A stretch of 47,285 nt of DNA from Acidocella aminolytica 101 = DSM 11237 (GTDB lineage: Bacteria > Pseudomonadota > Alphaproteobacteria > Acetobacterales > Acetobacteraceae): positions 1 to 47,285 of the forward strand of contig NZ_FQVJ01000029.1 of the NCBI RefSeq assembly GCF_900129125.1, written 5' to 3'. A program made the position numbers and the translations under genes. The notes under the pieces were generated by a model. The model was not told the origin of the DNA. It saw nothing but the letters and a program-made list of their open reading frames with translations, and did not search any database. Shown piece by piece: positions 1,035 through 38,584 of this stretch. Numbering within the stretch: position 1 is the first letter of the stretch; the number at the start of each line of letters is the position of its first letter.

Positions 1035-1052
1035 AACACGCCCGCAACTGAA

Positions 1053-3286: not shown

Positions 3287-3780
3287 GATTCACTCCCTCT
3301 GCGGAGACCTGTTATTCATTATGGCTAATTATGGCCTGCGTTACACGACAAGCGTGAAACCAAATCTACTTTAAGGCAAAAGCAGATTACTTTTTATATC
3401 ATTACAATATTCTTATGCATAAGTGTTGGCAAGGAAATTCGGCCGCGTCACTCATCCTGGTACAGCTTGTTCCTATAGCTTCTTTTAAAGAGTACCAAAA
3501 AATTCTGGATCGACTGCAAATGCATACTATTTTCACATATCAACAGCGCGCTTTTTGCAGCACAAACTAGCGTCATGCCACACACCGCTCCGAAAGACTG
3601 AGTACTGTTTGCGAACAAGCAGCCCCACACTTCCACCGAGCCTTCACAGCTATAAATAACGTGTAAAGTGCGTCCCGGAGGATCATCTTGGTTTTGGTGT
3701 TTCAGCTAAAGGGGAGCGCCTCATAAACAAGCGCGGACAGAAGCCTCGCTATCAGCGTCTTATACACCGCATGAAAAAAT
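3287..3780. other. AT-rich intergenic region without a clear gene
   Basis: About 490 bases between the cytochrome start and the tRNA 3' end. The part next to the cytochrome (roughly 3300-3430) is AT-rich and should hold the promoter of the leftward cytochrome/dehydrogenase operon. A 62-codon leftward frame at 3448-3636 has no recognisable domain and no convincing start signal; I do not call it a gene. No integrase remnant or copy of the tRNA end is evident here. Confidence 0.5.
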
Positions 3781-3857
3781 TGGCGGACCCGGCGCGATTC
3801 GAACGCGCGACCTTTGCCTTCGGAGGGCAACGCTCTATCCAGCTGAGCTACGGGTCC
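3781..3857 (-). tRNA. tRNA-Arg(CCG)
   Basis: The complement folds as a full 77-base cloverleaf: acceptor GGACCCG pairs with CGGGTCC, D-arm with AGCTCAGCTGGATAGAGC, anticodon stem TTGCC/GGCAA around loop CTCCGAA (anticodon CCG, reading CGG), T-arm with GTTCGAATC, and an encoded CCA at 3783-3781. The 3' end faces left, towards the AT-rich segment, with a T-run in the transcript directly after CCA. Confidence 0.96.
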
Positions 3858-3994
3858 GTGTCTGGCCCTTCTAGCCGCATCGGCCTGGCGGAGCAACAGG
3901 GCTTTCTCTGTTTCCTGCCGCGCCGCCCAACTGCCCAAACAAAGCGCCTTGCCAGGGGGCATCCCCGGCAAGGCGCCCGGCGTCAGAGCCGTCT

Positions 3995-22007: not shown

Positions 22008-23486
22008 TCAGGAATATTTGATCCAGGTGGTTTTCAGGGCGGAGAATTTCTCCAGCGCGTGCAAGGAAAGATCTCGCCCGAAGCCGGACTGACGAACCCC
22101 GCCAAAGGGCGTTTGCGGGCTGAGCGCATCAACCGTGTTGACTGAGACCGTGCCGACGCGAAGTGCTGATGAAACACGCAAAGCGCGGCTGATATCCTGC
22201 GTCCAGACCGAGGCGGCAAGGCCGTAAAGACTGTCATTGGCGAGGTGGAGCGCCTCTAACTCTGTCTCGAACGGCACCACGGCCAGAACCGGGCCGAACA
22301 CTTCCTCATGCAGCAGGGCGGCATCAGCGGGTAGGCCGGTGAAGATGGTGGGCTGCATGAACGCCCCCGGCCGTGCCGCCGCCTGCCCGCCACAGGCGAG
22401 GGTTGCGCTGGCCTTGGCTTTTTCAACATGGCCCAGCACCTGGGTGAGATGCGCCGCGTCCACCAGCGCGCCCATGCGAGTTTGCGGGTCCAGCGGGTCG
22501 CCGGGCTGGTAGGCAGCGGCTTGGTTCACCAGACGGGCGGTGAACTCCTCCGCGACGGATTTTTCCACCAGCAGGCGGGAATTGGCGGAGCAGACCTGAC
22601 CAGCATTGAAGAAGATGGCCATGGCCGCCGCTTCCGCAGCTTTGTCGAGATCCGAATCCGCAAAGATGAGGTTGGGGCTTTTGCCGCCGAGTTCGAGCCA
22701 AACCTGTTTGAGGTTACTCTCACCGGAATAGCCCATGAGGGTACGGCCTGTGCGGGTGGAGCCGGTGAAGGCGAGGCAATCCACATCGTTATGCAGGGCC
22801 AGGGCTTTGCCGGCCTCGTGCCCGAAACCGGTGACAATATTCAGAACACCATCCGGCAGACCGGCCTCGCGCGCCAGCTCCGCGAGGATGAGGGCCGAGA
22901 AGGGTGAACGTTCAGAGGGCTTCAGCACCACGCTGTTGCCCGCCGTCAGGGCGGGAGCACATTTCCATGCCGCCATGTCAAACGGGAAGTTCCAGGGCAC
23001 GATGGCGCCGACGACACCCAGCGGCTCGCGCGTGACCAAGGCGAGGTTTCCCGCATTGGTAGACGCGACCTCGCCGGATTGCTTGTCGATGGCCTCGGCA
23101 TAGAAACGCCAGACGGCGGCCGCGGCAGGAATATCGATGGCGGTGGCTTCTTCAACTGGTTTGCCCATGTCCAGGCTTTCAGCCAGAGCCAGACGGTCGG
23201 TATTAGCTTCGATCAGCGTGACCAGGCGGAGCAGGATGTCGCGCCGTTCGACCATGTCTTTGCCGCGCCAACGTTTGTCCTCAAAGGCAAGGCGGGCGGC
23301 TTGCACGGCGGCGTCGATATCCGCGGCGCTGCCCTGCGCGACCTCGCCCAGCAGCGCGCCGGTGGCAGGGTTGAGTTTGGAAAAACGGGCGGCGGCAGCC
23401 CGGGGGGCGCCATTGATGAACAGGTCAACCGGCAGCTTGGCCTGGGCGGCCAGGCTTTGCCATTCCTGGTGAGTCTTGCGTGACAT
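22008..23486 (-). CDS. Aldehyde dehydrogenase, PuuC-like (aminoaldehyde type)
   Basis: 492 residues, full-length NAD(P)-dependent aldehyde dehydrogenase. Landmarks: GAIVPWNFPFDMAAWK near 160-175, the NAD site GFGHEAGKALALH and FTGSTRTGRTLM, the glutamate motif LELGGKSPNLIF near 266-277, the catalytic cysteine in FNAGQVCSANSRLL near 299, and PQTPFGGVRQSGFGRD at the C-terminus. Its N-terminal block resembles gamma-glutamyl-gamma-aminobutyraldehyde dehydrogenase (PuuC). It is the last gene of a leftward operon after an oxidase-type flavoprotein, a permease and an amidase, so it probably oxidises the aldehyde formed by that flavoprotein. The exact aldehyde is unknown. Confidence 0.88.
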   Translation of the reverse strand: MSRKTHQEWQSLAAQAKLPVDLFINGAPRAAAARFSKLNPATGALLGEVAQGSAADIDAAVQAARLAFEDKRWRGKDMVERRDILLRLVTLIEANTDRLALAESLDMGKPVEEATAIDIPAAAAVWRFYAEAIDKQSGEVASTNAGNLALVTREPLGVVGAIVPWNFPFDMAAWKCAPALTAGNSVVLKPSERSPFSALILAELAREAGLPDGVLNIVTGFGHEAGKALALHNDVDCLAFTGSTRTGRTLMGYSGESNLKQVWLELGGKSPNLIFADSDLDKAAEAAAMAIFFNAGQVCSANSRLLVEKSVAEEFTARLVNQAAAYQPGDPLDPQTRMGALVDAAHLTQVLGHVEKAKASATLACGGQAAARPGAFMQPTIFTGLPADAALLHEEVFGPVLAVVPFETELEALHLANDSLYGLAASVWTQDISRALRVSSALRVGTVSVNTVDALSPQTPFGGVRQSGFGRDLSLHALEKFSALKTTWIKYS

Positions 23487-23491
23487 GGGTC

Positions 23492-24274
23492 CTAATCTTG
23501 GCTGTTATAGAGGTCCGGCCGTCTGTCGCGCCGGTAGGGGAAGAGCGTGGCTGCCGCTTGCAGCGTGGCGTGGGAAATATCCGCCAGCAAAAGCGCCTCC
23601 CCTGCCCCGGCGACGGCGAGTGGGCGGCCGTCTGGCCCGGCGATGCAGGACCCGCCGAGATAAATGAGGCCGTCTTCTTCTCCGGCATGGTTGCAATAGC
23701 CGACGAAGATCTGGTTCTCGACCGCGCGGGCGGGTACGATCGCGCCAGGCACACAGCCATATTCGGGCGTGAGAGCGGTTGGGATGAGCAGCAGGTCTGC
23801 GCCAGAGAGGGCAACGTGGCGGACAGCCTCGGGGAATTCAACGTCGTAGCAGATCAGCAGGCCAATTTTCCAGCCGCGATAGGTGAAAGGCGACATGAAG
23901 GCGGCGCCGGGGCTATATTCTCCGCGCTCGAAATCACCGAAGAGATGCAGCTTACGGTAGAGGCCGAGACGAGCCCCGTCCGGCCCGATGGCGATGGCGC
24001 TGTTATAGATGGCGTCGCCATCCTGCTCGGCAAAGCCATAAACGATGGCGAGGCCGGTCTCCCGCGCGAGTGTGGCGATGGCGGTGGCGGCGGGGCCGTC
24101 TGATGGTTCAGCCAGCGTGGCCTGGACTGCGTTGTAACCGCCCAGCCAGCATTCTGGACAGAGCAGAAGCTCCGCCCCGGCGGCGGCGGCGGCGCGGGCC
24201 GTACGCGACAAGGCGGCGAGATTGGCCGCCTTGTCCGTAAGACGCCCCGTGGTTTGCCAAAGGGCGATGCGCAT
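23492..24274 (-). CDS. Carbon-nitrogen hydrolase, DavA-like amidase
   Basis: 260 residues, nitrilase superfamily. The catalytic Glu-Lys-Cys set is visible: Glu in LLLCPECWLGGYN (about residue 41), Lys in YRKLHLFGDFERGEYSPG (about 110) and Cys in LLICYDVEFPEA (about 142). The length and the LHLFGDF and ICYDVEFPE blocks resemble 5-aminopentanamidase (DavA/R-amidase type), which hydrolyses a small omega-amino amide to the acid and ammonia. It sits three bases after the permease gene and five before the aldehyde dehydrogenase. The substrate here is unknown; a deamination of an amide formed in the same pathway is the likely role. Confidence 0.85.
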   Translation of the reverse strand: MRIALWQTTGRLTDKAANLAALSRTARAAAAAGAELLLCPECWLGGYNAVQATLAEPSDGPAATAIATLARETGLAIVYGFAEQDGDAIYNSAIAIGPDGARLGLYRKLHLFGDFERGEYSPGAAFMSPFTYRGWKIGLLICYDVEFPEAVRHVALSGADLLLIPTALTPEYGCVPGAIVPARAVENQIFVGYCNHAGEEDGLIYLGGSCIAGPDGRPLAVAGAGEALLLADISHATLQAAATLFPYRRDRRPDLYNSQD

Positions 24275-24277
24275 GGA

Positions 24278-25660
24278 TCAGACCGTCGCCAGCTTGTTGG
24301 CGGAGTGGCGCTTCGCGATGACGTAATAGATCGGGCTGATGACGCAGAGACCGACGATCCAGGACAGATCCACACCATCCAAAGCCTTGGCGATTGGGCC
24401 GGTGTAGAGCTCTGTGGAGACGAAGGGGAGTTGAATGATGATGCCCAGAATGTAGCAGAAGATCGCCGCTTTGTTGAAACGGCCATAGGCGCCGCCTTCA
24501 GGGGTGAAAAAGGCGTTCACATCGTAATCGCCATGGCGAACGAGGTAGAAATCGACAAGGTTGATAGCGGTCCAGGGCACCAGCACGTAGAGCAGCATCA
24601 GGATGAAGTTGGTATAGGTAGCCAGGAAATTGCCTGCGGCAAACAGAGCGATCGACAGGCCGATAATGGTGATAATGATGGCCGTGACTGCGCGCGCCGT
24701 GGCCCCCGCCTTCCAGGACGGAATGAAAGTATGGATCAGTGTAATGGTGGAGAGCACGCCGCAATACAGGTTCATTGCGTTGGTGCCAGCGATGCCCACG
24801 GAGAAAATGATCACGATGGGGATGGCGGCTACGCCGGTGAAGGCGGTGAGGCCGGCGACCGGATCACCATTGGCGGCGACGAGGCCAAGCATGGCGCCCA
24901 GGATCATCGGAAGGATGGAGCCCAGCGAGCAGCCCCAGTAAGAAGCCCAGAAGGCGTGCTTGGCGCCAGTGTCGTGCGGCATGTAGCGACTATAGTCAGA
25001 GACGTAAGGCGCGTAGGCGATCTGCCAGAGCGCGCCGACCGAGACCATGCTGAAAAAGCCCGCGCTGTTGAAGCTGTTCATCGCCAGGAACTGGTTGGGC
25101 AAGCCATGCACCAGGACAATCCAGGCGAAGGTAAGCAGCAAGGCGAGACCCGACGCCCAGGTGAGGAAACGCGTGTAAGCGTGAATGAGATCATGCCCGA
25201 AAATGGTGGCGATGACGCTGACACAGGCGATGAAGACGATGAGCACATGCTCGTTAATGCCCAAGGCGATGGTGTGCAGCGACTGCCCGCCCAGCACGAT
25301 ATTGGAGGCCAGGAAGCCGACATACATGATGATGACAATGGCCACCACTAGCACCGCCCCTACCGTGCCGAACTGGCCGCGCGTCTGCACCATTTGCGGC
25401 ACGCCTAGCTGCGGGCCCTGCGCGGAGTGCAGCGCCATGAAGATGGCGCCGACGAGATTGCCAACGGCGATGGAAAGCACCGCGCTGATGAAGTCCAGCT
25501 TGAACACGGCGGTGGCCAGTGAGCCGGTGATGATGGTGAGCATCATGATGTTCGAGCCGAACCAAATGGTGAACAGGTCACGCCAAGTGCCGTGACGCTG
25601 GTCCAGCGGTATTTGGTATATGGTATGTTGCTCGACTTTGGCTGGGGCTTCTGTGGCCAT
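24278..25660 (-). CDS. NCS1-family permease (cytosine/purine/allantoin-type)
   Basis: 460 residues from the ATG at 25660, selected by the AAGGAT ribosome-binding site just upstream; an in-frame upstream start lies within the flavoprotein gene. Twelve hydrophobic segments are visible. The N-terminal block TWRDLFTIWFGSNIMMLTII and VPQMVQTRGQFG (about 75-86) are hallmarks of the nucleobase:cation symporter-1 family. Members import cytosine, hydantoins, allantoin, uracil or other small N-heterocycles and some quaternary amines. It lies ten bases after the flavoprotein stop, so it likely imports the substrate of this operon. Confidence 0.87.
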   Translation of the reverse strand: MATEAPAKVEQHTIYQIPLDQRHGTWRDLFTIWFGSNIMMLTIITGSLATAVFKLDFISAVLSIAVGNLVGAIFMALHSAQGPQLGVPQMVQTRGQFGTVGAVLVVAIVIIMYVGFLASNIVLGGQSLHTIALGINEHVLIVFIACVSVIATIFGHDLIHAYTRFLTWASGLALLLTFAWIVLVHGLPNQFLAMNSFNSAGFFSMVSVGALWQIAYAPYVSDYSRYMPHDTGAKHAFWASYWGCSLGSILPMILGAMLGLVAANGDPVAGLTAFTGVAAIPIVIIFSVGIAGTNAMNLYCGVLSTITLIHTFIPSWKAGATARAVTAIIITIIGLSIALFAAGNFLATYTNFILMLLYVLVPWTAINLVDFYLVRHGDYDVNAFFTPEGGAYGRFNKAAIFCYILGIIIQLPFVSTELYTGPIAKALDGVDLSWIVGLCVISPIYYVIAKRHSANKLATV

Positions 25661-25670
25661 GGTTGTATCC

Positions 25671-27779
25671 TTAACGCTGGGGGTTGTGCGCCATGACGGC
25701 GCTGAAATCAAAAGGCAAAAGCGCCGCTACTTCCCGGCGGAAGGGCAAGGCGTCTGGGTCTGGGGTGGTGTCGAATTCCTCGGCATAACGGCGGCCGCTC
25801 CAGACGGCGGCGGCAATGGTGCCGGGGGCCAACGCATCACCAATAACGGTGACGCTTTTAATACCGGCGTCCGCCCAGTCGGCCTCTCGGGTGCGCAGGG
25901 CTTTGGCGAGGCCAAGGAGGGGCAGACGGGCAGTGACCAGGATCACGGCACCGGCCTCAATAGTTTCCTCACGCCCGGTGAAGGTACAAGCCAGCGTGGC
26001 GTGCCCGGCTTGCGCCCGCGCCAGGGTGCGGTTGGCGCGGATGATAATGTTTTGCTCCAGCAGACGAGCCTGGATTTTGTGCTGTTCCATGGTGTTGAAG
26101 GTCCAGGCGGAGGCACCGGCAGCGGGGGTGACGAGCGTAACCTCGTACCCCTCCTGGGCCAGAAGCTCGGCCAGGACGCCTCCCATATAGTAATGATCGT
26201 CATCATAAAGCAGCACCTGCTTTGCCTTTGGCCTTGCACCGGCCATCAGGTCATCCGGCGTGAAACATTCCACGCCTTCCAATGGAGCGGCATGAAGCAT
26301 ATTCCGTGCCACCGTATCGCGCCGCCAGGAACTGCCGGTGGCGAGAACGATATGCGCGAAGCCGAAACTCAGCAGGTCTTCAGCGGAGAGATCGCTTTCG
26401 AAGAAGGTCTCGAGATTGGTCATCGGCGTGATCTGGCCGATGCGGTAATCCGCGACGCGGCCCCAGGCGGAGAGCCCTGGCAGGCGGCGTTCGTGAATGA
26501 GGCGGCCGCCCAGCTCGCGCCCGCGCTCGGCCAAGGCAACCTCATAGCCGCGCCTGCCCAGCATCATCGCGGCTTCCAGCCCAGCGGGGCCGCCGCCGAC
26601 CACCAGCACTCGGGCATCGCTCTCTTTGGCGCGGATATATTCAGGGTGCCAGCCGCGGCGCCATTCCTCGCCCATGGCCGGGTTTTGGGTGCAGCGGATG
26701 ATGGAGGAAGTGTGATCTCCCGAGACGCAGATATTGCAGCCGATACATTCGCGAATCTCCTCGATACGGCCTTCACGGATTTTTTCGGGGATGAACGGGT
26801 CCGCGATTGAGGGGCGTGCGGCGCCGATGCAGTCTAGCACGCCCTGCTTGACCATGCGCACCATGAGGTCCGGCGAGGTGAAACGGCCGACGCCAACAAC
26901 CGGCTTGGTGGTGAGTTGTTTCACGCCCCGCACATAAGGCTCCTGATACCCCTCCCCGACGAAGCGGGAGGTTTGGCTGTCATTATCCCATGAGGAGAGC
27001 GTGAGATCCCATAGGTCTGGCAGTTCGGCCAGATGGGAAATGACATCCCGCGCCTCGGCGGCGTGGAAACCTTCCTCGCCGATCATCTCGTCCACCGAAA
27101 TCCGGCAAGCTACGCCTAGGGAATCGCCAACCGCGTCTTTAACCTCTTCGATCAGCTCTTTCAGCAGGCGGGCGCGGTTTTCCAGGCAGCCGCCATATTC
27201 ATCCGTGCGCTGATTAAAGCGGCGAGAGAGAAAGAACATCGGCCCGCCAAAGAGTTTCCCGGCATAGACATAAACGATGTCATAACCCGCGCGTTTGGCC
27301 CGCAAAGCTGCGTCGCGGTGCCATCTGCGGAGATTACGGATGTCCTGCTTGTCCATCGCGCGGGCTTGCACGGGATCGTTAAAAACCGAGAAAACCGGCA
27401 AATCCGCCGGCCCCATTGGAATTTCTCGCGAATAGAGGTTGGGCGCGTTCATGCCGTTATGACAAAGCTGCAGGCCCGCGAGAGAGTCGTATTGATGAAT
27501 CGAGTCCGCGACGCGGGCGAGCATCGGCACGTCTTGTTCACTCCAGACGCGCAGCTCTATAAAGGGACAGATTTCAGCGCTGGGATGGATTTCCGCCTGC
27601 TCTGAACAGACAACACCCCAACCGCCCTGCGCCTTGACCGCGCGCATGGTGGCCAGCGCCGAAGGGTCACGATAGCCCATGCCGTTGCAATGCGGCACCT
27701 GGAAAAAGCGGTTTTTCGCCACCACTGGCCCTATGCGGACCTGATCGAACAAAATATCGTAGCGGGGATCTCGCGCCAA
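25671..27779 (-). CDS. TMADH/DgcA-type iron-sulfur flavoprotein amine dehydrogenase
   Basis: 702 residues: an Old-Yellow-Enzyme-like FMN barrel (1-340), a 4Fe-4S site (Cys345, Cys348, Cys351, Cys363) and a C-terminal FAD/ADP-binding part (VLVVGGGPAGLEAA near 390-403). Alignment from memory with trimethylamine dehydrogenase fits over the whole length: Cys31 equals Cys30, which binds FMN covalently (QVPHC), and Tyr172, Trp264 and Asp267 are kept. The substrate pocket differs: Gln61 replaces Tyr60 and Asp355 replaces Trp355, as I recall for histamine dehydrogenase, and Lys175 replaces catalytic His172. The N-terminal region also resembles dimethylglycine/N-methylproline demethylases (DgcA-like). 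First gene of a four-gene operon. It should oxidise a small amine to an imine or aldehyde; electron acceptor and substrate are not evident. Confidence 0.85.
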   Translation of the reverse strand: MARDPRYDILFDQVRIGPVVAKNRFFQVPHCNGMGYRDPSALATMRAVKAQGGWGVVCSEQAEIHPSAEICPFIELRVWSEQDVPMLARVADSIHQYDSLAGLQLCHNGMNAPNLYSREIPMGPADLPVFSVFNDPVQARAMDKQDIRNLRRWHRDAALRAKRAGYDIVYVYAGKLFGGPMFFLSRRFNQRTDEYGGCLENRARLLKELIEEVKDAVGDSLGVACRISVDEMIGEEGFHAAEARDVISHLAELPDLWDLTLSSWDNDSQTSRFVGEGYQEPYVRGVKQLTTKPVVGVGRFTSPDLMVRMVKQGVLDCIGAARPSIADPFIPEKIREGRIEEIRECIGCNICVSGDHTSSIIRCTQNPAMGEEWRRGWHPEYIRAKESDARVLVVGGGPAGLEAAMMLGRRGYEVALAERGRELGGRLIHERRLPGLSAWGRVADYRIGQITPMTNLETFFESDLSAEDLLSFGFAHIVLATGSSWRRDTVARNMLHAAPLEGVECFTPDDLMAGARPKAKQVLLYDDDHYYMGGVLAELLAQEGYEVTLVTPAAGASAWTFNTMEQHKIQARLLEQNIIIRANRTLARAQAGHATLACTFTGREETIEAGAVILVTARLPLLGLAKALRTREADWADAGIKSVTVIGDALAPGTIAAAVWSGRRYAEEFDTTPDPDALPFRREVAALLPFDFSAVMAHNPQR

Positions 27780-27982
27780 ACCGATAACACTCCATCTATT
27801 AAGTTACTGTCAGCTTACATGAGTTTTTCTTGGCCGGAATTCGAATTAACTGAAGCACGGATAACCATTTCTCTGTGCATAAGGATAAAATTTAAGCAAA
27901 TGCCCGGCGTTCGCGCCTGCAGCAAAGGCAATGACGGAAAAGGGGTTGCCGAACGGTGAGGCTGCGCTAGACATAGGGTGAC
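27780..27982. promoter_or_regulatory. Divergent promoter region, flavoprotein operon / M20 gene
   Basis: About 200 AT-rich bases separate the two divergent starts. A perfect 10-base palindrome AATTCGAATT lies at 27838-27847. A similar sequence, AATTTGAATCA, is at 30054-30064 in the promoter of the nearby LysR gene. This may be the site of that LysR regulator, but the motif is short and AT-rich. Confidence 0.35.
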
Positions 27983-29119
27983 ATGCTTACAACCGCAGAT
28001 ATCCTCGCCACGTTGATCGCGTTTCCCACCATCAGTGCTGACAGCAATGAGGCGCTGATGCATTGGAGCGCCGCGCGCATTAGTGAAGCCGGTGGACGAA
28101 TTCGAGTTCTTGATGGCGCCAAGCCTGGAAAACTCAATATGTTGGCGAGTTTTGGGCCCAATACGGGAACGGGGATTGTGCTTTCCGGCCATAGCGATGT
28201 GGTACCCGTGGCCGGGCAAGCCTGGACAACGGACCCGTTTGGGCTGACCTGCAAGGATGGCAGACTGTATGGCCGCGGCACCAGCGACATGAAAGGCTTT
28301 TTGGCCGCCTGTCTGACCGCCGCAGCGCGCGCAGACAAAGAACGGCTGATCCGCCCGCTGCATCTGGCTTTTTCCTACGATGAGGAGATTGGCTGCGTAG
28401 GCGTGCGGGATATGCTGGACCGACTGGTACAAGACGGGTTTCAGGCCGAAGGCTGCGTGATTGGAGAACCAACGGAGCTGAAAGTGGCGCTGGGACATAA
28501 AGGTAAGCTGGCGGGCTGCATCTGCTGCACGGGGCTGGCCGCGCATTCCGCCAATCCGGCTTTGGGCTGCAACGCGATTTCATTGGCGGCAGAGATGATT
28601 TGCGAGGCCGAAGAGTTGCAGACGGAATTGCAGGCCAGCGGCACGCATGATGAGGCCTATCCCTTCCCTATCACGAGTGTTCATATTGGCACCATTGAAG
28701 GTGGCACCGCGCTGAATATCGTGCCCGACCATTGCGAGATGCGCTTTGAGATCCGCAATGTCGCGGGCGACGATCTGCACGCACTGGTTGAGAAATTACG
28801 GAAGCGAGCGGAAAAAATTGTAGCTCGCCACAGCAAGGGAAAAATCGAAATCGAAACGGACAATGAATATCCGGGGTTGGATACGCCGCGTGACGATGCT
28901 TTCGCGCAAAAGATATTAACGGCAGCGGGAACCGACGCCTGCAAGATCAGTTTTGGCACAGAAGGCGGGCTGTTTAAGGAGCGGCTGCAAATGCCGGTGG
29001 TGGTGTGCGGCCCCGGCAGCATAGATCGGGCGCACAAGCCGGATGAATATGTGATGCAGGACGAACTTGATGCCTGCGATGCTTTTTTGGACCGGGTGAT
29101 TGCCGGACTGTACTGTTAG
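27983..29119 (+). CDS. M20-family metallo-deacylase (ArgE/DapE-like)
   Basis: 378 residues. Dinuclear zinc ligands are clear: His in LSGHSDVVPV (about 72), Asp in GRGTSDMKGF (about 104), the Glu pair in SYDEEIGC (about 137), Glu in VIGEPTEL (about 162) and His in GSIDRAHKPDEY (about 351). The ArgE-type GHKGKLAGCI and FGTEGGLF blocks are present. Members remove acyl groups from N-acyl amino acids. Arginine synthesis is unlikely from its place in a catabolic block, divergent from the flavoprotein operon; hydrolysis of an N-acylated intermediate is more plausible. It ends overlapping the convergent LysR gene by four bases. Confidence 0.87.
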   Translation: MLTTADILATLIAFPTISADSNEALMHWSAARISEAGGRIRVLDGAKPGKLNMLASFGPNTGTGIVLSGHSDVVPVAGQAWTTDPFGLTCKDGRLYGRGTSDMKGFLAACLTAAARADKERLIRPLHLAFSYDEEIGCVGVRDMLDRLVQDGFQAEGCVIGEPTELKVALGHKGKLAGCICCTGLAAHSANPALGCNAISLAAEMICEAEELQTELQASGTHDEAYPFPITSVHIGTIEGGTALNIVPDHCEMRFEIRNVAGDDLHALVEKLRKRAEKIVARHSKGKIEIETDNEYPGLDTPRDDAFAQKILTAAGTDACKISFGTEGGLFKERLQMPVVVCGPGSIDRAHKPDEYVMQDELDACDAFLDRVIAGLYC

Positions 29120-30036
29120 CCGGTTCCCGGCAAGGGTTTGTCCAGCAGCAAATCGCGGCATAGCTCCATGAAGGCTTCCGCCGTGGGAGTGCGGCGCAGG
29201 CCTTTCAAAGTGGCGATGCCGTAAATGAGGGGGCGGAGCTTGTCCTCCAGCGCCAGATAGGACAGCTTATGGCCGTCCAGCGTAATGACGTTTTTGGGTT
29301 GAGCATTGGCCAAGCCGTACCCCTCGCCACGGGCGACTAAGCTGCGGATGATATCGATATAAGCGTAGCGTCCGACAATGTTGGGGGAGAGTCCGGCCTC
29401 GCGGAACAGAGACAGGAAATAGTCACGGCTCATCGGCAGGTCGAGCAGCAGAAAATCCTCGTCGTGCAGTTCCTTAAGGCTGATGAAGCGCCGCCGTGCG
29501 AAACGGTGCGAGGCGCCGACAAAGGCGTAAGGCGGCAGGGGGGCCATCGGCGTGAATTCAAAGTCCGGCGGGATGTTCATGTCGTAGGTCAGCAGCAGTG
29601 CGATGCGGCCGTTACGCAAAGCTTCAAACAACTCCGACTGATTGCCCGCCACGGCGTTGGCGCGGGCCTCCGGGTAAAGCTTGCGGAACTCCGAGAGCAG
29701 CTCAGGTACCGCCAGCGGGAACAAGGTGGAGAGACAGCCGATTTCAATAGGACCGGCGACTTTGGCAGAGATCAGAGAGGCTGCGTTCTGCACTTCCTCG
29801 GCTTGCATTAGCAGCGCCCGAGCTTCCCGCAGAAAACGTTGGCCCTCCGCGGTGAGGGAAAGGCCCTGGGCGTGGTGGCGGATGAAAAGCTGGATGCCGA
29901 ATTCCTCCTCCAACGCGGTGATGGCGGAGGAGATTGAGGGCTGGGAAATATTCACGCGCTCAGATGCCAAGGTGATACTGCCGGTTTCCGCCGTGGCGAC
30001 GAAATAAGTGATTTGTTTGAGGGTAAAGCGCATCAT
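29116..30036 (-). CDS. LysR-type regulator of the accessory catabolic block
   Basis: 306 residues from the ATG at 30036 (a second ATG follows at 30033; an upstream TTG at 30051 is less likely). The N-terminal helix-turn-helix FTLKQITYFVATAETGS / ASERVNISQPSISSAITALE is clear, and the effector domain follows from about residue 90 (GPIEIGCLSTLFPLAVPELL). It is divergent from the DUF1028 gene and convergent with the M20 gene, placing it at the centre of the block. It probably controls the flanking catabolic genes in response to the substrate or an intermediate. Confidence 0.87.
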   Translation of the reverse strand: MMRFTLKQITYFVATAETGSITLASERVNISQPSISSAITALEEEFGIQLFIRHHAQGLSLTAEGQRFLREARALLMQAEEVQNAASLISAKVAGPIEIGCLSTLFPLAVPELLSEFRKLYPEARANAVAGNQSELFEALRNGRIALLLTYDMNIPPDFEFTPMAPLPPYAFVGASHRFARRRFISLKELHDEDFLLLDLPMSRDYFLSLFREAGLSPNIVGRYAYIDIIRSLVARGEGYGLANAQPKNVITLDGHKLSYLALEDKLRPLIYGIATLKGLRRTPTAEAFMELCRDLLLDKPLPGTG

Positions 30037-30138
30037 GGTCGAGGAACTCAAAAAATTTGAATCAGGCTATCAGAAGATTTTATTTTACAAAAGCAAAACC
30101 AACCATGAAACCGGACATGACCGGATAGGAGCTAGTGC

Positions 30139-30816
30139 ATGACTTTTTCACTCGTGGCTCGGTGCTCGCGCACAGGGCAATTTGCCGTGGCGGTCACGTC
30201 ATCCTCCCCCGCCGTGGCGGCGCGCTGTGCCTTTGCGCGAGCGGGGATTGGCGCTGTGACCACGCAGAATGTGACTGACCCACGGTTGGGGCCGAAGATG
30301 CTGGCAGCGCTGACGACGGGGCGAAATGCTGAGACCGCCCTGCAGGAGGCGGTTAGCGGGGCGCATTTTTCTGAATACCGGCAGCTTACGGTGATTGATG
30401 CACAAGGGGGCACGGCATTTTATTCCGGCGCCAAGACGCTGGGCGTGTATGGCGCCGCGCAGGGGCATGACGCGGTTTCCGCTGGTAATTTACTGGCGAA
30501 CCAGAATGTGCCGCAGGCGGTGGTGGGGACGTTTGCGGCTTCTGACCCCGCCTTGGAATTAGGCACGCGGGTGATGGCGGCGATGCGGGCCGGGCTGGCG
30601 GCCGGAGGCGAGGCTGGGCCGCTGCAGTCCGCCGGGATTTTGGTGGTGGATAAGGAGGCTTGGCCAGTCGCGGATTTGCGGGTAGACTGGCATGACACGC
30701 CGCTGGATGAACTTGCCCGGCTTTGGAAAATTTGGCAGCCGCAAATGTATGATTATGTGACGCGCGCGCTGAACCCAACGGCCGCGCCTTCTTACGGTGT
30801 ACCGGGGGATGAGTAA
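30139..30816 (+). CDS. DUF1028 (Ntn-hydrolase-like) protein
   Basis: 225 residues. The start MTFSLVARCSRTGQFAVAVTSS and the blocks VAARCAFARAGIGAVTTQN (31-49) and VSAGNLLANQNVP (near 113-125) are characteristic of DUF1028, predicted to have the N-terminal-nucleophile hydrolase fold. The reaction is unknown; members often lie beside amidases, deacylases and RidA proteins in amino-acid or amine catabolic clusters, as here. It is divergent from the LysR gene (about 100 bases between starts) and convergent with the aldolase gene. Confidence 0.85.
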   Translation: MTFSLVARCSRTGQFAVAVTSSSPAVAARCAFARAGIGAVTTQNVTDPRLGPKMLAALTTGRNAETALQEAVSGAHFSEYRQLTVIDAQGGTAFYSGAKTLGVYGAAQGHDAVSAGNLLANQNVPQAVVGTFAASDPALELGTRVMAAMRAGLAAGGEAGPLQSAGILVVDKEAWPVADLRVDWHDTPLDELARLWKIWQPQMYDYVTRALNPTAAPSYGVPGDE

Positions 30817-30832
30817 TCCCCCGGCTCTCTGC

Positions 30833-31540
30833 TTATGAAAGATAGTCCGGGGGAAGATGCCTACGCATATGCGCGAAATGCGCGTCGCCGAATTCGGGCT
30901 CATTCTCCCAGGCGCGGGCGGTTTTTTCCGCGACCTCGTCGTTGAGAATGTTCAAGGGCTGGCCTGAACCGTAGGCCAGCAGCAAGGTGCGGGCCGCGCG
31001 CTCGAAATGGTAAAAGGCATCGAAAGCGTCGGCCGCGTTTGCGCCGATTGTGAGCAGACCGTGATTGCCCATCATCAGGATTTTCTTTTCACCCAGAATT
31101 TTGGCTAGCCTTTCACCCTCGGCAACATGGTCGGCGACGCCAGCATAGGCGTCGTCGATGGCTACGCGGTTGAAGAAGCGTGCGCTGGTCTGGTCCACCG
31201 GGTAGAGGGTGGGGTCTTTCAGGCAGGACAGCGCGGTGGCGTATATAGGGTGCAAATGCACCACGCAGCGCGCCTGGGGCAGCAGACGGTGAATGGCGCC
31301 GTGAATAGCCCAGGCGGTGCTGTCTATATCGTCCGGCAAGTCCTGGGACGTGCTGTCCAGAAGTGCCAACTCGGATGCTTTCAGCGTGGCGAAGTCCCTC
31401 CAGCGGCGATTGATGAGGAATTGCGCGCCGTCATCGGACGCCGCCAGGGAGATGTGGTTTGCGGTGGCTTCCTGCCAGTCGAACCGGGCGGCGAGACGGC
31501 AGAGAGCAGCGAGCTCCCCGCGTAGCCGTGCCTCGCTCAT
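30833..31540 (-). CDS. Class II aldolase/adducin-family protein
   Basis: 235 residues. The zinc site is seen in VVHLHPIYATAL (two His near 93-95) with a further His in MMGNHGLLTIG (near 155). The fold also fits L-fuculose-phosphate aldolases and decarboxylases of this superfamily. It overlaps the RidA gene by four bases (31537-31540), so the two are one operon. No sugar-phosphate genes are nearby, so a retro-aldol, decarboxylation or dehydration step on a catabolic intermediate is more likely than sugar metabolism. Naming it MtnB is not justified. Confidence 0.83.
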   Translation of the reverse strand: MSEARLRGELAALCRLAARFDWQEATANHISLAASDDGAQFLINRRWRDFATLKASELALLDSTSQDLPDDIDSTAWAIHGAIHRLLPQARCVVHLHPIYATALSCLKDPTLYPVDQTSARFFNRVAIDDAYAGVADHVAEGERLAKILGEKKILMMGNHGLLTIGANAADAFDAFYHFERAARTLLLAYGSGQPLNILNDEVAEKTARAWENEPEFGDAHFAHMRRHLPPDYLS

Positions 31541-31944
31541 GGAAGCTCCGCGATGACGTCGATCTCAACCAGCCATTCCGGGCGGGCGAGTGCGACCACG
31601 ACAAGGCCGGTAAAGACCGGATAAACGCCTTTCAGCCAGCGCCCGGCGCTGCGGTACACAGCCTCACGGTGGCGGATGTCCGTAAGATAGACAGTGACTT
31701 TGCAAATATGTTCGAGCGTGGCGCCGCATTCACGCAGCAGCATGTCGATATTCTGCATCACCTTCTCGGCTTGGCCGGCGGGGTCCCCTACCGCGACGTT
31801 TTCGCGTGTGTCGAGATCCTGCGGGACTTGGCCGCGCAGATAGATCGTCTTACCGGTGACAACTGCCTGGCAGAGATCGTTATCGAGATTCTGCTCAGGA
31901 TAAGTGTCTTTGGTGTTGAAGGGGCGAATACGTTTGTGAATCAT
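31537..31944 (-). CDS. RidA/YjgF-family protein lacking the catalytic arginine
   Basis: 135 residues, one RidA domain: KTIYLRGQVPQDLDTRE near 31-47, MQNIDMLLRECGATLEHICK near 62-81, and WLVEIDVIAEL at the end. Active RidA imine deaminases carry an Arg in the block P-x-R-(S/T); here the block is P-V-F-T with Phe110 at that place. It therefore belongs to the Arg-less Rid groups, whose function is unknown and which are not expected to hydrolyse 2-aminoacrylate. It is the first gene of a two-gene operon with the aldolase. Confidence 0.87.
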   Translation of the reverse strand: MIHKRIRPFNTKDTYPEQNLDNDLCQAVVTGKTIYLRGQVPQDLDTRENVAVGDPAGQAEKVMQNIDMLLRECGATLEHICKVTVYLTDIRHREAVYRSAGRWLKGVYPVFTGLVVVALARPEWLVEIDVIAELP

Positions 31945-32095: not shown

Positions 32096-33757
32096 TCAGA
32101 GGGACGGCAGGTCGAGCTTGAATTCCCGTGCGCAGTCCTGGGCGATTTCATAACCGGCATCGGCATGACGCATCACACCGGTGGCGGGGTCGTTCCAGAG
32201 CACGCGTTCAAGACGCTTCGCGGCTTCGGGCGTGCCGTCAGCGCAGATGACCATGCCGGAATGCTGAGAGAAGCCCATTCCCACACCGCCGCCATGATGC
32301 AGCGAGACCCAGGTGGCGCCCGACGCGCAATTGAGCAAAGCGTTGAGCAAAGGCCAGTCTGAAACAGCGTCCGAGCCGTCCAGCATGGATTCCGTCTCAC
32401 GGTTGGGGGACGCGACGGAGCCGGAATCAAGATGGTCTCGGCCGATTACAACCGGGGCGGAAAGCTCGCCGCGCGCGACCATCTCGTTAAACGCAAGGCC
32501 GAGACGGTGCCTGTCTCCCAACCCTACCCAGCAGATGCGCGCGGGCAGGCCCTGAAAGGAGATACGCTCCCGCGCCATGTCCAGCCAGTTATGGAGGTGT
32601 TTGTCGTGCGGCAGAAGCTCTTTCACCTTTTGATCGGTCTTGTAAATATCCTCCGGGTCGCCAGAGAGAGCGGCCCAGCGGAACGGACCGATGCCACGGC
32701 AGAATAGCGGGCGGATATAAGCGGGCACAAAGCCAGGGAATTCAAAAGCGTGAGAAACGCCCTGCTCTTTCGCGCGCTGGCGGATGTTGTTGCCGTAATC
32801 GAACGTGGGCACGCCCATCTTCACAAACTCAAGCATGGCGCAGACATGCTGGGCCATGGAGGCGCGAGCGGCATCTTCTACCGCTTTTGGATCGGTTTCG
32901 CGTTTGGCTTCCCATTCCGCAACGCTCCATCCGATGGGGAGATAACCATTGACCGGGTCGTGGGCGGAGGTTTGGTCTGTCACCATGTCCGGTTTCACGC
33001 CACGCTTGAGAAGATCCGGCAGAATTTCCGCGGCATTACCGAGCAGCGCCACGGAGACGGCTTTTTTCTCAGTACGGGCACGGTCGATGATTTCCAGCGC
33101 TTCGTCGAGGTCTTTGGCCTGCACATCAACATAGCGGGTTTTCAGGCGCATTTCGATGCGGCTCTGCTGGCATTCAATGGCAAGGCAGGAGGCTCCTGCC
33201 ATGGTAGCGGCGAGCGGCTGGGCGCCGCCCATGCCGCCCAGACCGGCGGTGAGCACCCAGCGACCAGCAAGGTCTCCATTATAATGACGCCGGCCAGCTT
33301 CAACGAAGGTTTCGTAAGTACCCTGAACAATTCCCTGGCTGCCAATATAAATCCAGGAGCCGGCCGTCATCTGGCCATACATCATCAGCCCCTTGCGGTC
33401 GAGCTCGTTGAAATGAGACCAATTAGCCCAGTTGGGCACCAGATTAGAATTGGCAATAAGGACGCGAGGGGCATCCGGGTGGGTGCGGAAAATGCCGACG
33501 GGTTTGCCAGATTGGATGAGCAGGCTTTGATCGTCTTCAAGGCGCTTGAGGGCGGAGACGATGCGGTCAAACGCGTTCCAGTCCCGCGCGGCGCGGCCGA
33601 TGCCGCCATAGACCACCAGTTCCTCCGGACGCTCGGCCACCATCGGGTCAAGATTATTCATCAACATCCGCAAGGGCGCTTCGGTGAGCCAGCTTTTCGC
33701 GGAAAGTTTCGAACCATGGTCCGCGCGGATCACGCGCGCATTGTCGAGACGGGTCAT
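32096..33757 (-). CDS. hutU: Urocanate hydratase
   Basis: 553 residues from the ATG at 33757 ([12 protein letters not shown]), which overlaps the hutG stop as ATGA; the open frame reaches further upstream but lacks family sequence. The NAD-binding glycine block [17 protein letters not shown] lies near 165-181 and the active-site region [17 protein letters not shown] near 375-391, including the conserved cysteine. It hydrates urocanate to imidazolonepropionate with tightly bound NAD+. It is the last gene of hutI-H-G-U; a terminator follows. Confidence 0.96.
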
Positions 33758-34542
33758 GCGCAGAGGCCTTTCAGGATGGTTTCGAGAGTGGAGAGGATGG
33801 GTGCGGGGGTTTGCAAAGGGGCTGGCCACGTTTCGGGCGTGACGGGATCCGGCTCCTGCATATAGCCACGGCAGCCCAGCTCCATTTGGATGGCATGGAT
33901 GTTGCGCGCGGGATCGCCGTAATGGCGGGTGATCCAGCCGCCTTTGAAACGGCCATTGACAGTATAGGAAAAACCGCTGGCGGCGCAGGCGCGTTCAACT
34001 TGCGCCTGCAAGGTAGGCGCGCAGCTTTGGCCGCTATTGGTGCCGATATTGAACTGCGGCAGCTCGCCATCAAACAGGCGCCGAATGCGGCTGCGGATGG
34101 AGTGGCAGTCATATAGCACCGCGCGGCCATGCAAAACATGGATACGCTCAATTTCAGCGCGCAAGGCGGCGTGGTAGGGGACGAAATAAGTTTCGCGACG
34201 GCGGGCGATTTCAGCTTCATCCGGTGGAGTGCTTTTATAAAGCGGCTCGCCGTCAAAGGTTTCCGTGGGGCAAAGCCCCGTGGTCGCTTGGCCCGGATAG
34301 AGCGAGACGCCGGACGGGTCGCGGTTAAGGTCGATCACCGAACGGGAGATATGCGCGGCGATAATGGTGGCGTCCATTGTTGCGGCAAAGCTGTAGAGGG
34401 CGGGCAGATGCCAATCCGCATCCTTGCGAGCGAGCCAGTCTGAGACGAACAGCCCTGAAAATTCATCTGGGATTTCCGTTCCCGCATGAGGGATGGACAG
34501 AATTACAGGGGCGTTGCCCCGGCGCAGTGTGAAAAAGCTCAT
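33754..34542 (-). CDS. hutG: N-formylglutamate deformylase
   Basis: 262 residues. The family start with [16 protein letters not shown] (13-28), [10 protein letters not shown] near 67, [14 protein letters not shown]-like [10 protein letters not shown] near 143 and the C-terminal [19 protein letters not shown] are typical of the HutG N-formylglutamate amidohydrolase family. It releases formate and glutamate in the last step of the pathway that uses HutF. It overlaps hutH upstream and hutU downstream by four bases each, so translation of the three is coupled. Confidence 0.93.
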
Positions 34543-36047
34543 GCCACCCCCGGCAAGGTTTCAAAGGCCAGGGCGCCCGCTTGCAGCAGGATGATGGCTT
34601 TTTGCATATCAGGCGCGAAATGCCGGTCTTCCTCCAGCTTTGGCACGGCCCGGCGCAGGGTGGCGCGGGCATCTTCCAGGACGGCTGAGGAGTTCAGCGT
34701 GTGGAAGTCACAACCTTGAGAGGCTGCCAGCCATTCAATGGCGATGATGGCACGGAGATTTTCATTCATGACCAGCAGACGGCGCGCGCCATGGGCAGCC
34801 ATGGAGACATGATCCTCCTGATTGGCTGAGGTGGGGATGGAATCAACCGAAGCGGGAAAAGCGCGCCCTTTATTCTCGGAAACCAAGGCAGCGGCCGTAA
34901 CTTGCGGGATCATGAAGCCGGAATTCAGGCCGGGTTTGGGGGTCAGGAACGCGGGAAGGCCGGAAAGAACAGGATCAACCAGAAGTGAGATGCGACGTTC
35001 AGTCAATGAGCCGATCTCACAAATGGCCATGGCGATCATATCCGCCGCGAAGGCCACGGGCTCGGCATGGAAATTGCCGCCGGACAGAGCCTCGGTGGGG
35101 TTGGTGAAGATCAGGGGATTGTCCGTTACGCCGTTGGCCTCGGTTTCCAGCGTGGCGGCGGCTTGGCGCAGTACATCCAAAACCGCGCCCATGACCTGCG
35201 GCTGACAACGCAGGCAATAAGGGTCTTGCACGCGTTCATCGCCCTTTAAATGCGAGGCGCGGATAGCAGACCCGGCCATGAGGTTGCGCAGCGCATCCGC
35301 AACCTGCTTCTGGCCTTTATGTTTGCGCACGGCGTGGATCCGCGGATCGAACGGTGCGTCGGAACCCTTGGCTGCATCCGTGGAGAGTGCGCCAGTGACG
35401 AGGGCGGCGCGGAAATTACGCTCGGCCTCGAACAACCCCGCGAGGGCGTTGGCGGTGGAAAATTGAGTGCCGTTGAGCAGCGCCAAACCCTCCTTCGGGC
35501 CCAGCGCGAGGGCGGTGAGACTGGCCTCTTGCAAGGCTTGGGCAGCCTCTTTGCGAGTGCCGTTGATGTAGATTTCACCAACGCCCATCATCGCGGCGGT
35601 CATGTGCGCGAGAGGTGCGAGATCACCTGAGGCGCCAACAGAACCTTGCGCGGGCACCACGGGAATGAGGTTTTTCGCCAGCATGGCTTCCAGCATGCGA
35701 ACCGTTTCCACACGCACCCCTGATGCGCCCTGGCCGAGCGATCCCATTTTCAGCGCCAGCATCAGCCGCGCGACAGGGATGGGCATAGGCTCGCCAACAC
35801 CGGCGGCGTGGGAGAGGACGAGATTGCGTTGCAAGGTGGCAAGATCATCATCCGCAATGCGGACGGAGGCCAGCTTGCCGAAGCCGGTGTTGATTCCGTA
35901 AATCGGTTCGCCACGACTGAGAATTTCGGCCACGGCGTTGGCCCCGTCCTGGATGGAAGGAAGGGCCTGCTCATCAAGTTCAATGGATTCGCCTTGATAG
36001 ATCGCGCGCCATTGGGTGAGGCTCATGGCCCCAGGGGTGAGTTTCAT
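34539..36047 (-). CDS. hutH: Histidine ammonia-lyase
   Basis: 502 residues from the ATG at 36047, which overlaps the hutI stop (ATGA); the open frame extends upstream within hutI and is not used. The self-processing Ala-Ser-Gly that forms the MIO group is at 139-141 ([15 protein letters not shown]), and the catalytic Tyr50 is in IYGINTGFG. Conserved [14 protein letters not shown] lies near the C-terminal third. It eliminates ammonia from L-histidine to give urocanate, the first step of the pathway. Second gene of hutI-H-G-U. Confidence 0.96.
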
Positions 36048-37225
36048 ACGGCACTCCAGATGCGTTGATGTAACGGGTTGAACCCGATGCGATAGACAAG
36101 TTCCGCCGGGCGTTCGATGTTCCAGATGGCAAGATGGCATTTGGCACCGGCCTTCAATACGCCTACCCTCTCGCGGCCCAGCGCGACGGCGGCGTGCCGG
36201 GTGACGCCGAGCAGACATTCCTCGACCGTCAGGCGGAATTGCGTGGCCGCCATGTTCATTGCCAGCAGCAAGGAGAAAAGCGGCGAGGTGCCGGGGTTGA
36301 GATCCGTGGAGACCGCCATGGGCACGTTATATTTCCGGAACGCCGCGACTGGCGGCAGCTTGGTTTCGCGCAGGGTGAAGAAGGCGCCGGGCAGAAGCAC
36401 AGCGACGGTGCCGGATTTGGCCATTGCAGCAGCGGCATCTTCGCTGGTATATTCAAGATGATCCGCCGAGAGCGCGTCGAAGCGCGCGGCGAGTTCTGCA
36501 CCGTGCAGGTTCGAAAGCTGGTCTGCGTGGAGCTTGACTTTAAGCCCGTGCCGCGTGGCGGCGGCGAAAACCTGTGACATTTCCTCAGGCGAGAAGGAGA
36601 TGCCTTCGCAAAACCCGTCAACGGCGTCGGCCAGATTGTGTGCCGCGACGTGGGGGATCATCTCCGTGCAGAGTAGGCGCAGATAATCGGCACGGGAAAG
36701 CTCTGGCGGGAAACCGTGTGCGCCAAGGAAGGTAGGGGAAATATCGGCGACGCCACTTAATGATTTGGCGACTTCAAGGCATTTATACTCCGATTCAGGC
36801 GAGAGGCCGTAGCCTGATTTGACTTCGATGGTAGTAACACCTTCGGCAATCAGGGCCGCCATGCGCTTTTGCGCTTCTGTACGCAGCGTGGCCGCGCTGG
36901 CTTCGCGCGTGGCCTTCATGGTGCCGAGAATGCCGCCGCCCGCACGGGCGATTTCCTCATAGCTGGCGCCGTTCAGCCGTGATTCAAACTCCGCCGCCCG
37001 GTCCCCGGCATAGATAAGATGAGTGTGGCAATCGATGAGGCCGGGGGTGATCCAACGGCCTTCACAATCTATCATTTCGACCGTGTCCATGGTTCGTGAC
37101 GGTCCGGCGTAGAGGATATGCCCGCCTGCTTCAGCCACCATTCCATTTTCAACCACGCCCAGTCCTGGCAGCGCCGGGTCCATGGTTGCCAGCCTCGCAT
37201 TGGAAAAAATCCGCTCTGCCCGCAT
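36044..37225 (-). CDS. hutI: Imidazolonepropionase
   Basis: 393 residues from the ATG at 37225 ([12 protein letters not shown]), preceded by AAGG at suitable distance; the longer frame overlaps the divergent hutF start. Metal-binding residues of the amidohydrolase fold: His pair in [11 protein letters not shown] near 66-76, His in [10 protein letters not shown] near 235 and Asp in [10 protein letters not shown] near 310. It opens the imidazolone ring to N-formimino-L-glutamate. First gene of the leftward hut operon; its promoter faces hutF across the HutC-like operator. Confidence 0.95.
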
Positions 37226-37256
37226 GTTCTGTACCTTGGCGTTGAGTGGGATAAGT

Positions 37257-37266
37257 TGTATATACA
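37257..37266. promoter_or_regulatory. HutC-like operator between hutI and hutF
   Basis: TGTATATACA is a perfect 10-base palindrome in the 66-base gap between the divergent hutI and hutF starts. It fits the TGTA-N2-TACA core reported for the histidine repressor HutC in pseudomonads. hutC is encoded just downstream of hutF, and no second copy is evident in the window. Confidence 0.75.
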
Positions 37267-37291
37267 TATCCATCCTCAGGAGGCCTGTCCA

Positions 37292-38584
37292 GTGTCCGAA
37301 CGCATCATTTTTCGCCACGCCCTTCTGCCCGGTGGCTGGGAAGAGAATGTCGCCCTTACGATGAGTAATGGCGTGATCAGTAAGATTGAGACCGGTGTCG
37401 CGGGCGGCACGGCGATTGCCCTACCCGGCATGCCGAACCTGCACAGTCATAGCTTTCAACGCGCCATGGCCGGGCGGGCGGAATTGCGTGGGCCGACTGC
37501 GGATAGTTTCTGGACATGGCGGGAACTGATGTATCGGCTGGCCTTGTCTCTGGATCCGGATGATGTGCAGGCCATAGCCAGATTGGCATTTACCGAAATG
37601 CTGGAGGGTGGATTTACCGCCGTAGCAGAGTTTCATTACCTCCATCATGCGCCGGATGGATCGCCTTATGCGGATATTGGTGAAATGGCTTCACGCCTGA
37701 CCGAGGCGGCGAATGAGGTTGGGATTGAGCTGGTGCTTTTGCCTGCATTTTACGCACATTCAGGCTTTGGTGAGCAAAAGCCCGCCGAAGGGCAGCGGCG
37801 GTTTATCAATTCACTCGACAGCTACGCGAAACTTCATGCGCGATGCCGGGCTTTAACGACCACCGGTTGTGCCCCGCACTCATTGCGTGCAGCCACGCTG
37901 GAGGAAATTGACGCCTTGGCGGCGTTGAATGGCGACGCGCCGTTTCATATTCATATCGCTGAACAAGCCGCCGAAGTGGAGGCGTGCATTGCGTATTCCG
38001 GAGCGCGACCGGTAGAATATTTGCTGGCGAATGCGCCGGTTTCGCCGGGCTGGTGCTTGGTTCATGCCACCCATATTACCCGGGCCGAGGCGCTGGGCAT
38101 GGAAAAAGCCCAGGTAGTAGCCGGGCTTTGCCCGATCACAGAGGCAAATCTGGGGGATGGGATTTTTCCTGCACAGCATTATAGCGGCGCTTATGGCATT
38201 GGTTCAGATTCGAATGTGCTGATCGATGTGGGGCGGGAATTACAGATGCTTGAATATTCGCAGCGTCTTGGCCAGCGTCAGCGTAATGTCATGGCCACTG
38301 AGGCGATCCGCCCGACCGCGACAGCGCTTTATCAACGCACCCTTGATGGGGGCGCGCGGGCTTTGAGGATGCGCCAGGGCCTAAGCGTGGGTGCCCCCGC
38401 CAGTTTTGTGACCATTGCGGGCGACAACCCGGAGCAAGCCTTGGCAGAGGCCGTGTTTACCTCACGCCAAACCAGGATACACGATGTATGGGTGCGCGGT
38501 AGGCAAAGAGTGTGGAATGGGCGGCATGAAAATGCCACCGCCGCCTGCGCGGGTTTTGATGCCGTGCTGCGCAAACGGCTGTGA
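37292..38584 (+). CDS. hutF: Formimidoylglutamate deiminase
   Basis: 430 residues from the GTG at 37292, fixed by a perfect AGGAGG eight bases upstream (37278-37283); the open frame further left is antisense to hutI. Amidohydrolase metal ligands: HxH in [15 protein letters not shown] near 46-60, His in HIHIAEQ near 217, His in HATHITRAE near 256 and Asp in GSDSNVL near 304. It deiminates N-formimino-glutamate to N-formyl-glutamate, which HutG then hydrolyses. hutC follows with a GTGA overlap. Confidence 0.94.

Follow-up and report, generated by a model that had tools for sequence, protein, structure and literature searches.

A nine-gene block beside the hut genes

We analysed a 47,285-nucleotide stretch of DNA from Acidocella aminolytica 101 = DSM 11237 (contig NZ_FQVJ01000029.1; the whole stretch is referred to as the window), in which a block of nine genes lies beside the hut genes. 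The original prediction, made from the sequence of the window, had described this block as a catabolic set for import, oxidative deamination, aldehyde oxidation and amide or acyl hydrolysis, and we judge that description to be right. All nine genes were confirmed among the open reading frames of the window, each with an intact frame (Table 1). The minus-strand genes for the flavoprotein, the NCS1 permease, the CN_hydrolase amidase and the aldehyde dehydrogenase (ALDH) are separated by 10, 3 and 5 bases, respectively, as expected for the four-gene operon that had been proposed. The RidA and class II aldolase genes share a 4-base overlap, the LysR and M20 genes overlap tail to tail by 4 bases, and hutU is followed on the same strand by the RidA gene after a spacing of 151 bases.

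Table 1. Genes of the block (window coordinates) and the related dehydrogenase gene elsewhere in the genome
Feature	Coordinates	Strand	Basis or remark
PuuC/KauB-like ALDH	22008..23486	-	Pfam, NCBIfam and PDB matches
CN_hydrolase (nitrilase-superfamily) amidase	23492..24274	-	Pfam
NCS1-family permease	24278..25660	-	Pfam Transp_cyt_pur
Histamine-dehydrogenase-like FMN/4Fe-4S flavoprotein	25671..27779	-	TTG start; Lys at the catalytic His position; PDB search
M20 ArgE-family hydrolase	27983..29119	+	Exceeds the cut-offs of NCBIfam PRK07522 and TIGR01892
LysR-family regulator	29116..30036	-	Pfam
DUF1028 protein, Ntn-hydrolase-like fold	30139..30816	+	Pfam 4.5e-64; alignment; fold search
Class II aldolase/adducin-family protein	30833..31540	-	Pfam; NCBIfam PRK07490 over cut-off
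Arg-less RidA-family protein	31537..31944	-	Pfam
Second dehydrogenase of the same family	G000:C15:163998-167455 (L031:11002-14456)		Adjoins the genome's only close flavin monooxygenase gene

Motifs that we take to be catalytic are present in the M20 hydrolase (SGHSDVV and YDEE), the ALDH (GQVC) and the amidase (PECW, YRKLHL and CYDVEFPE). At the position of the canonical Arg motif the RidA protein reads YPVFTGLV, compared with HPVSTGLV for its counterpart in a related cluster (L078). Because canonical RidA presumably has arginine here, the label "Arg-less" given to the window protein in the original prediction fits. In the DUF1028 protein, Met1 and Thr2 are invariant among 17 aligned proteins. 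A fold search with its AlphaFold2 model (mean predicted local distance difference test score of 88.9) returned 2imh first, followed by weak matches to proteasome and Anbu chains; the matches at ranks 3-50 had E values of 4.5e-5 to 7.6e-4 and TM-scores of 0.38-0.47. The modelled structure fits an N-terminal-nucleophile hydrolase, in which Thr2 would be exposed once Met1 is removed.

The core of the block probably corresponds to the hin genes

As described in parts of a review (PMC8231116), histamine is converted to imidazole-4-acetate (ImAA) and then to aspartate in Pseudomonas putida U and P. aeruginosa. HinCD make ImAA, HinFLHG convert it to aspartate, and HinK is a LysR protein responding to ImAA. 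Table 1 of that review assigns PA5393 to hinF, PA5392 to hinL, PA5391 to hinH and PA5390 to hinG; hinG is described there as a probable peptidic bond hydrolase, and the hin genes of P. putida U as spread over several loci. Imidazolone acetate and N-formyl-aspartate appear as proposed intermediates in another source (PMC2542419).

In genus g116, which we take for Pseudomonas, each of the 25 genomes has one DUF1028 gene. The order flavin monooxygenase (FMO)-RidA-DUF1028-M20, seen in all six stretches examined, is the hinF-L-H-G order by locus number in the reviewed table (PMC8231116). From this gene order and one annotation we infer that hinF encodes the FMO, hinL the RidA, hinH the DUF1028 protein and hinG the M20 hydrolase. 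An OYE-family flavoprotein gene is close to these four genes in L242, much as dgcA is a neighbour of hinF in PAO1; no paper linking dgcA with PA5398 was found. RidA, DUF1028 and M20 proteins of the hinLHG type are all encoded in the block, where by analogy they would take the roles of HinL, HinH and HinG, and the LysR protein would probably sense ImAA like HinK.

We surveyed 398 Pseudomonadota genomes, 65 of which have DUF1028, and compared 76 DUF1028 places, the window included, leaving out one weak match below the cut-off (G246). Identity to the window protein was bimodal: 37 others were at least 48% identical, a group that we call hin-type, and 38 were at 40% or less. With the window excluded, genes within 8.5 kb of the hin-type members encoded RidA (35 of 37), FMO or HpaB monooxygenase (33), LysR (30), M20 (27), ALDH (12), the dehydrogenase (7), NCS1 (6), the aldolase (3) and the amidase (1). 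None of these partners was found near any of the 38 low-identity members, and aspartate ammonia-lyase was found near neither group. The association of RidA with hin-type DUF1028 exceeds chance. The set that recurs comprises RidA, DUF1028, ArgE-like M20, LysR and a monooxygenase of the flavin or HpaB type. Across the 398 genomes, hin-type DUF1028 was present in 36, a dehydrogenase of at least 50% identity in 15, and both in 11 (Fisher p 7e-10, which overstates the co-occurrence since six of the 11 genomes belong to one genus).

A similar set surrounded the dehydrogenase. Among the best 80 dehydrogenase loci (L034-L113) of at least 592 confirmed relatives, RidA of this type was found in 47, hin-type DUF1028 in 46, both in 44, and both together with an FMO or HpaB monooxygenase in 40, counts that are not independent because many of the loci come from Mesorhizobium or Roseobacter kin. 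M20 of either type was present in 41 of these loci, LysR in 40, ALDH in 29, aspartate ammonia-lyase in 5, NCS1 in 4 and the amidase (at least 40% identity) in 2; the aldolase was present in none. Aspartate ammonia-lyase is also annotated in a Leisingera plasmid cluster, and both occurrences speak for a hin-type reading of the block. In L039, L054 and L111 the dehydrogenase gene adjoins a histone-deacetylase-family gene, with no hin core and, in L039 and L111, a weak amidase homologue; these loci perhaps serve another amine pathway.

The original prediction had suggested looking for co-occurrence of these families across genomes; a conserved association was found, and the absence that would have counted against it was not. 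It had also stated that the set matched no known pathway and might be a new system. This proposal is unsupported: the core of the block agrees with Pseudomonas hinFLHG, and members of every one of the nine families were found in hin-type loci of other genomes, the aldolase (3/37) and the amidase (1/37) rarely. A new and unrelated catabolic pathway would leave room for the amidase and aldolase steps, for which the hin genes offer no explanation, yet given the conserved association with a hin-type core and a flavoprotein close in sequence to histamine dehydrogenase, we regard such a pathway as most improbable. What stays unusual is this combination of genes together with the Lys-bearing dehydrogenase clade described below.

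The flavoprotein is close to histamine dehydrogenases, but its catalytic His is replaced by Lys

Among PDB sequences, those nearest to the flavoprotein are two histamine dehydrogenases, 3k30 from Nocardioides simplex with 908 bits and 6de6 from Rhizobium sp. with 883 bits; 6l6j follows with 669 bits. The homology is full-length, with 60.3% identity to 3k30, and histamine had indeed been among the candidate amines of the original prediction. A trimethylamine-type demethylase was rejected because trimethylamine dehydrogenase scored only 513 bits versus 908 for 3k30.

We used active-site residues given for the Rhizobium enzyme (PMC10180351) as reference positions. Cys30, Gln60, Ile69, Phe72, Glu74, Asn110, Tyr171, Phe176, Arg225, Trp263 and Asp354 are present in the window flavoprotein, the FMN-linking Cys of histamine dehydrogenases included, and Phe131, Gly172, Ala173, His174, Gly175, Thr262, Glu264, Asp265, Cys266 and Met355 are changed. 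The Tyr-His-Asp catalytic triad is incomplete: the Tyr is retained, His174 is replaced by Lys, and the Asp is shifted by one position, the same as in 3k30. Among 103 aligned family members, position 174 (Rhizobium numbering) is His in 99, Lys in three (the window protein, L034 and L035) and Phe in one. A tree was built from 80 of the 103 rows after removal of near-identical sequences, tandem copies and overlong frames; in it the three rows with Lys group in a single clade, whose Shimodaira-Hasegawa-like approximate likelihood ratio test (SH-aLRT) support is 100%. Orthologues in four congeners (L222-L225) likewise have Lys, bringing the count to 7/7 of the clade members found. Since His174 is Lys, we class the protein as histamine-dehydrogenase-like only and not as EC 1.4.9.1, and since Lys replaces the catalytic His throughout the clade, its substrate may differ from histamine.

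The same genome encodes a second, intact dehydrogenase of this family on contig C15. It is 76.4% identical to the Rhizobium enzyme and has the same letters at all 21 active-site positions compared; an initial suspicion that the gene is broken was dropped, as the TAA in question is the regular stop codon of the gene. An FMO gene lies 50 bases from it. No other close homologue of this FMO is encoded in the genome, where the next match is 28% identical over 182 residues. A putative HinF-type monooxygenase is present in the genome, although outside the window.

The Lys-type flavoprotein could be a new amine dehydrogenase with a Tyr-Lys-Asp triad, feeding a non-histamine imidazole amine (for example, ring-methylated histamine) into the same ImAA-to-aspartate core, with histamine left to the C15 enzyme. 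The fixed His-to-Lys and neighbouring changes, the fully supported separate clade, and a second dehydrogenase whose active site is identical to that of the Rhizobium enzyme all speak for such a division of labour. On the other side, the flavoprotein conserves Gln60, Glu74, Asn110, Trp263 and Asp354, residues whose roles are given for the Rhizobium enzyme (PMC10180351, in part), and divergence is comparable within the histamine dehydrogenases themselves, the C15 enzyme being 54% identical to 3k30. We consider this division possible, with the odds somewhat against it.

Permease, aldehyde dehydrogenase, amidase and aldolase

All ten other NCS1 homologues of at least 46% identity in the 398 genomes are in hin-type loci. 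Seven adjoin the hin core, and three (59-60%) are in genus g116 beside ALDH and LysR genes, with the amidase (56-61%) present in two of the three. In one of them (L245), the order amidase, ALDH, class III aminotransferase, an unidentified stretch and NCS1 resembles the hinD-hinA-hinC locus of P. aeruginosa beside hinK, as far as that locus is described (PMC8231116, PMC2542419), with NCS1 in place of the APC permease HinA. No core hin gene was matched in the three stretches around more distant NCS1 homologues (44%; L247-L249). We also considered the urocanate permease HutTu, a name given to PA5099 (PMC12977541, in part). This was rejected: the three closest homologues lie beside ALDH and LysR genes, and in two cases also beside the amidase, whereas none of the hut proteins of the window was matched in the three 19-kb stretches. 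Import of the imidazole substrate is the likely role of the NCS1 permease.

The PDB matches of the ALDH include gamma-glutamyl-aminobutyraldehyde dehydrogenase and KauB, and its score is under the PuuC equivalog cut-off of NCBIfam. Together with the agmatine, putrescine or 1,3-diaminopropane reported as side substrates of known histamine dehydrogenases (PMC10180351, in part) and with the polyamine-type ABC transporters that flank many dehydrogenase loci, these matches would suit catabolism of agmatine or putrescine by the dehydrogenase and ALDH, the amidase being of the N-carbamoylputrescine amidase (AguB) type. That assignment was rejected for the amidase, which scored 116.8 bits against the AguB equivalog cut-off of 410.25, and the RidA, DUF1028 and M20 partners track the hin core rather than a polyamine route; we regard the polyamine route as very unlikely. 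The ALDH likely makes ImAA, a role analogous to that of HinD.

All three other amidase homologues of at least 57% identity in the 398 genomes are in hin-type loci (L134, L245 and L246); among weaker homologues, surroundings were retrieved for a minority. The class II aldolase gene adjoins the RidA gene in the congeners L222-L225, L233 and L234. As a substitute for the oxygenase the aldolase was discarded, because L223-L225 carry both.

Organisation in congeners and surroundings of the block

Among 24 same-genus genomes, many of them incomplete, 11 had a dehydrogenase match and all 11 also had DUF1028; two more had DUF1028 only. In congener L223 the order is hutH-hutG-hutU-FMO-RidA-aldolase-DUF1028-LysR-M20-flavoprotein-NCS1-amidase, that is, the FMO gene is inside the same block, between hutU and RidA. 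The nearest congener (L222, 91%) has no FMO gene at this place, the same as the window. Loci L226-L229 combine FMO or HpaB, RidA, DUF1028, LysR, M20, NCS1 and ALDH, with the amidase in two of the four, and their dehydrogenases (61-62% identical) retain the catalytic His. In L225 (G409), the M20 and LysR genes of the block are set about 8 kb apart by a segment that contains efflux-pump-like genes.

The divergent intergenic regions of the block (27780-27982 and 30037-30138) have a loose common motif in the congeners, recognised by eye only. In the first region it reads GAATTTAnnGAAGCA, with weaker copies in the second, and it is a candidate LysR site, again by eye. Window positions 32096-39324 hold the hut genes hutU, hutG (of the FGase type), hutH and hutI and, after these, a divergent hutF and a UTRA/GntR regulator gene. 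At the other end of the window, positions 1-4000 have a GC content of 0.50-0.52 versus 0.58-0.66 elsewhere, near a tRNA-Arg gene (3781-3857) and a PQQ dehydrogenase-family gene.

A probable hin-type route from an imidazole amine to aspartate

We conclude that the block is probably (at roughly 0.78) a hin-type imidazole-amine catabolic locus, which would convert histamine or a close imidazole amine to aspartate; both the substrate and the sequence of steps are putative. The NCS1 permease would import the substrate, and the flavoprotein, whose family is assigned by sequence, would oxidise a primary amine to the imine, histamine or a closely related compound being the likeliest substrate. RidA may help to hydrolyse the imine faster, giving imidazole acetaldehyde, which the ALDH would oxidise to ImAA; speculatively, the amidase may supply ImAA from an amide. 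The FMO encoded on C15, beside the canonical histamine dehydrogenase, would then oxidise the ImAA ring. RidA, DUF1028 and M20 would take the product to aspartate, an overall conversion published for hinFLHG in which the single steps assigned here are putative. The LysR protein would probably be the ImAA sensor, as HinK is.

Several results weigh against this assignment. No monooxygenase is encoded in the window, the catalytic triad of the flavoprotein is incomplete as described above, and the families of hinFLHG were assigned from gene order and one annotation. Neither RidA nor DUF1028 was found in 31 of the 80 dehydrogenase loci, some of which are on short contigs. The 31 include L034 and L035, the nearest relatives outside the genus, for which about 22 kb was searched. 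Conversely, 30 of the 37 hin-type DUF1028 loci have no dehydrogenase, 4 of the 15 dehydrogenase genomes (G071, G147, G170 and G226) have no hin-type DUF1028, and in one congener (L233, G398) the block seems to have no flavoprotein between M20 and NCS1.

If the hin-type assignment is true, histamine dehydrogenases, which are used in food testing, would be placed in a gene context that has a physiological meaning. The DUF1028 family, which has no named function so far, would be linked to one of the steps leading from imidazole acetate to aspartate, and an N-terminal-nucleophile mechanism would be a candidate for it. Should the Lys-type enzyme act on another imidazole amine, ImAA would be a hub for exchangeable entry modules: the Lys-type flavoprotein or one of the other entry enzymes found in loci of this kind, namely a GMC oxidoreductase, an amidase, an aminotransferase or a canonical histamine dehydrogenase. 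Clusters of dehydrogenase, RidA, DUF1028 and monooxygenase also occur in actinobacteria, for example Gordonia and Mycobacterium, in contrast to the absence of hin genes from the Gram-positives sequenced at the time that is reported in parts of the review (PMC8231116). These actinobacterial loci (L040, L044, L047, L049, L050 and L080) have either FMO or HpaB as the monooxygenase; in several of them NCS1, an APC permease and aspartate ammonia-lyase are encoded as well.

Comparison with known systems

No paper describing this gene set was found in the open-licence literature searched. The closest published system is hin of P. putida U and P. aeruginosa (hinABCD, hinFLHG and hinK), with which the block shares RidA, DUF1028 and M20 in hinLHG-like roles, ALDH, LysR and, on our assignment of the hinFLHG families, the route through ImAA to aspartate. 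It differs in having the flavoprotein for the HinC aminotransferase, NCS1 for HinA, the monooxygenase elsewhere in the genome, an additional amidase and class II aldolase, and a position next to hut. Because neither HinC nor HinA is encoded among the nine genes, the only part of the genome searched for them, the block is a variant and not the Pseudomonas system itself; it is a variant of a largely known pathway with a dehydrogenase entry step, and not a new pathway.

Acetobacter plasmids carry a compact DUF1028-FMO-ALDH-RidA-"cytosine permease"-GMC-M20-LysR operon, for example on pAPA01-020 of A. pasteurianus IFO 3283-01, for which no published function was found in the literature searched. 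Six of its proteins (DUF1028, ALDH, RidA, NCS1, M20 and LysR) are 50-80% identical to those of the window. It differs in having a monooxygenase and a GMC oxidoreductase, and no dehydrogenase, amidase or aldolase is annotated in the stretch.

Pno, the 6-hydroxypseudooxynicotine oxidase of Agrobacterium tumefaciens S33, is reported to be 46-48% identical to histamine dehydrogenases (PMC5500553, in part). It is also an FMN/4Fe-4S flavoprotein, likened here to the window protein by description alone, but belongs to a nicotine cluster. With the histamine dehydrogenases 3k30 and 6de6 the window flavoprotein shares about 60% identity (to 3k30), the flavinylated Cys and most substrate residues; it differs from them by the exchange of the catalytic His for Lys and by its separate clade.

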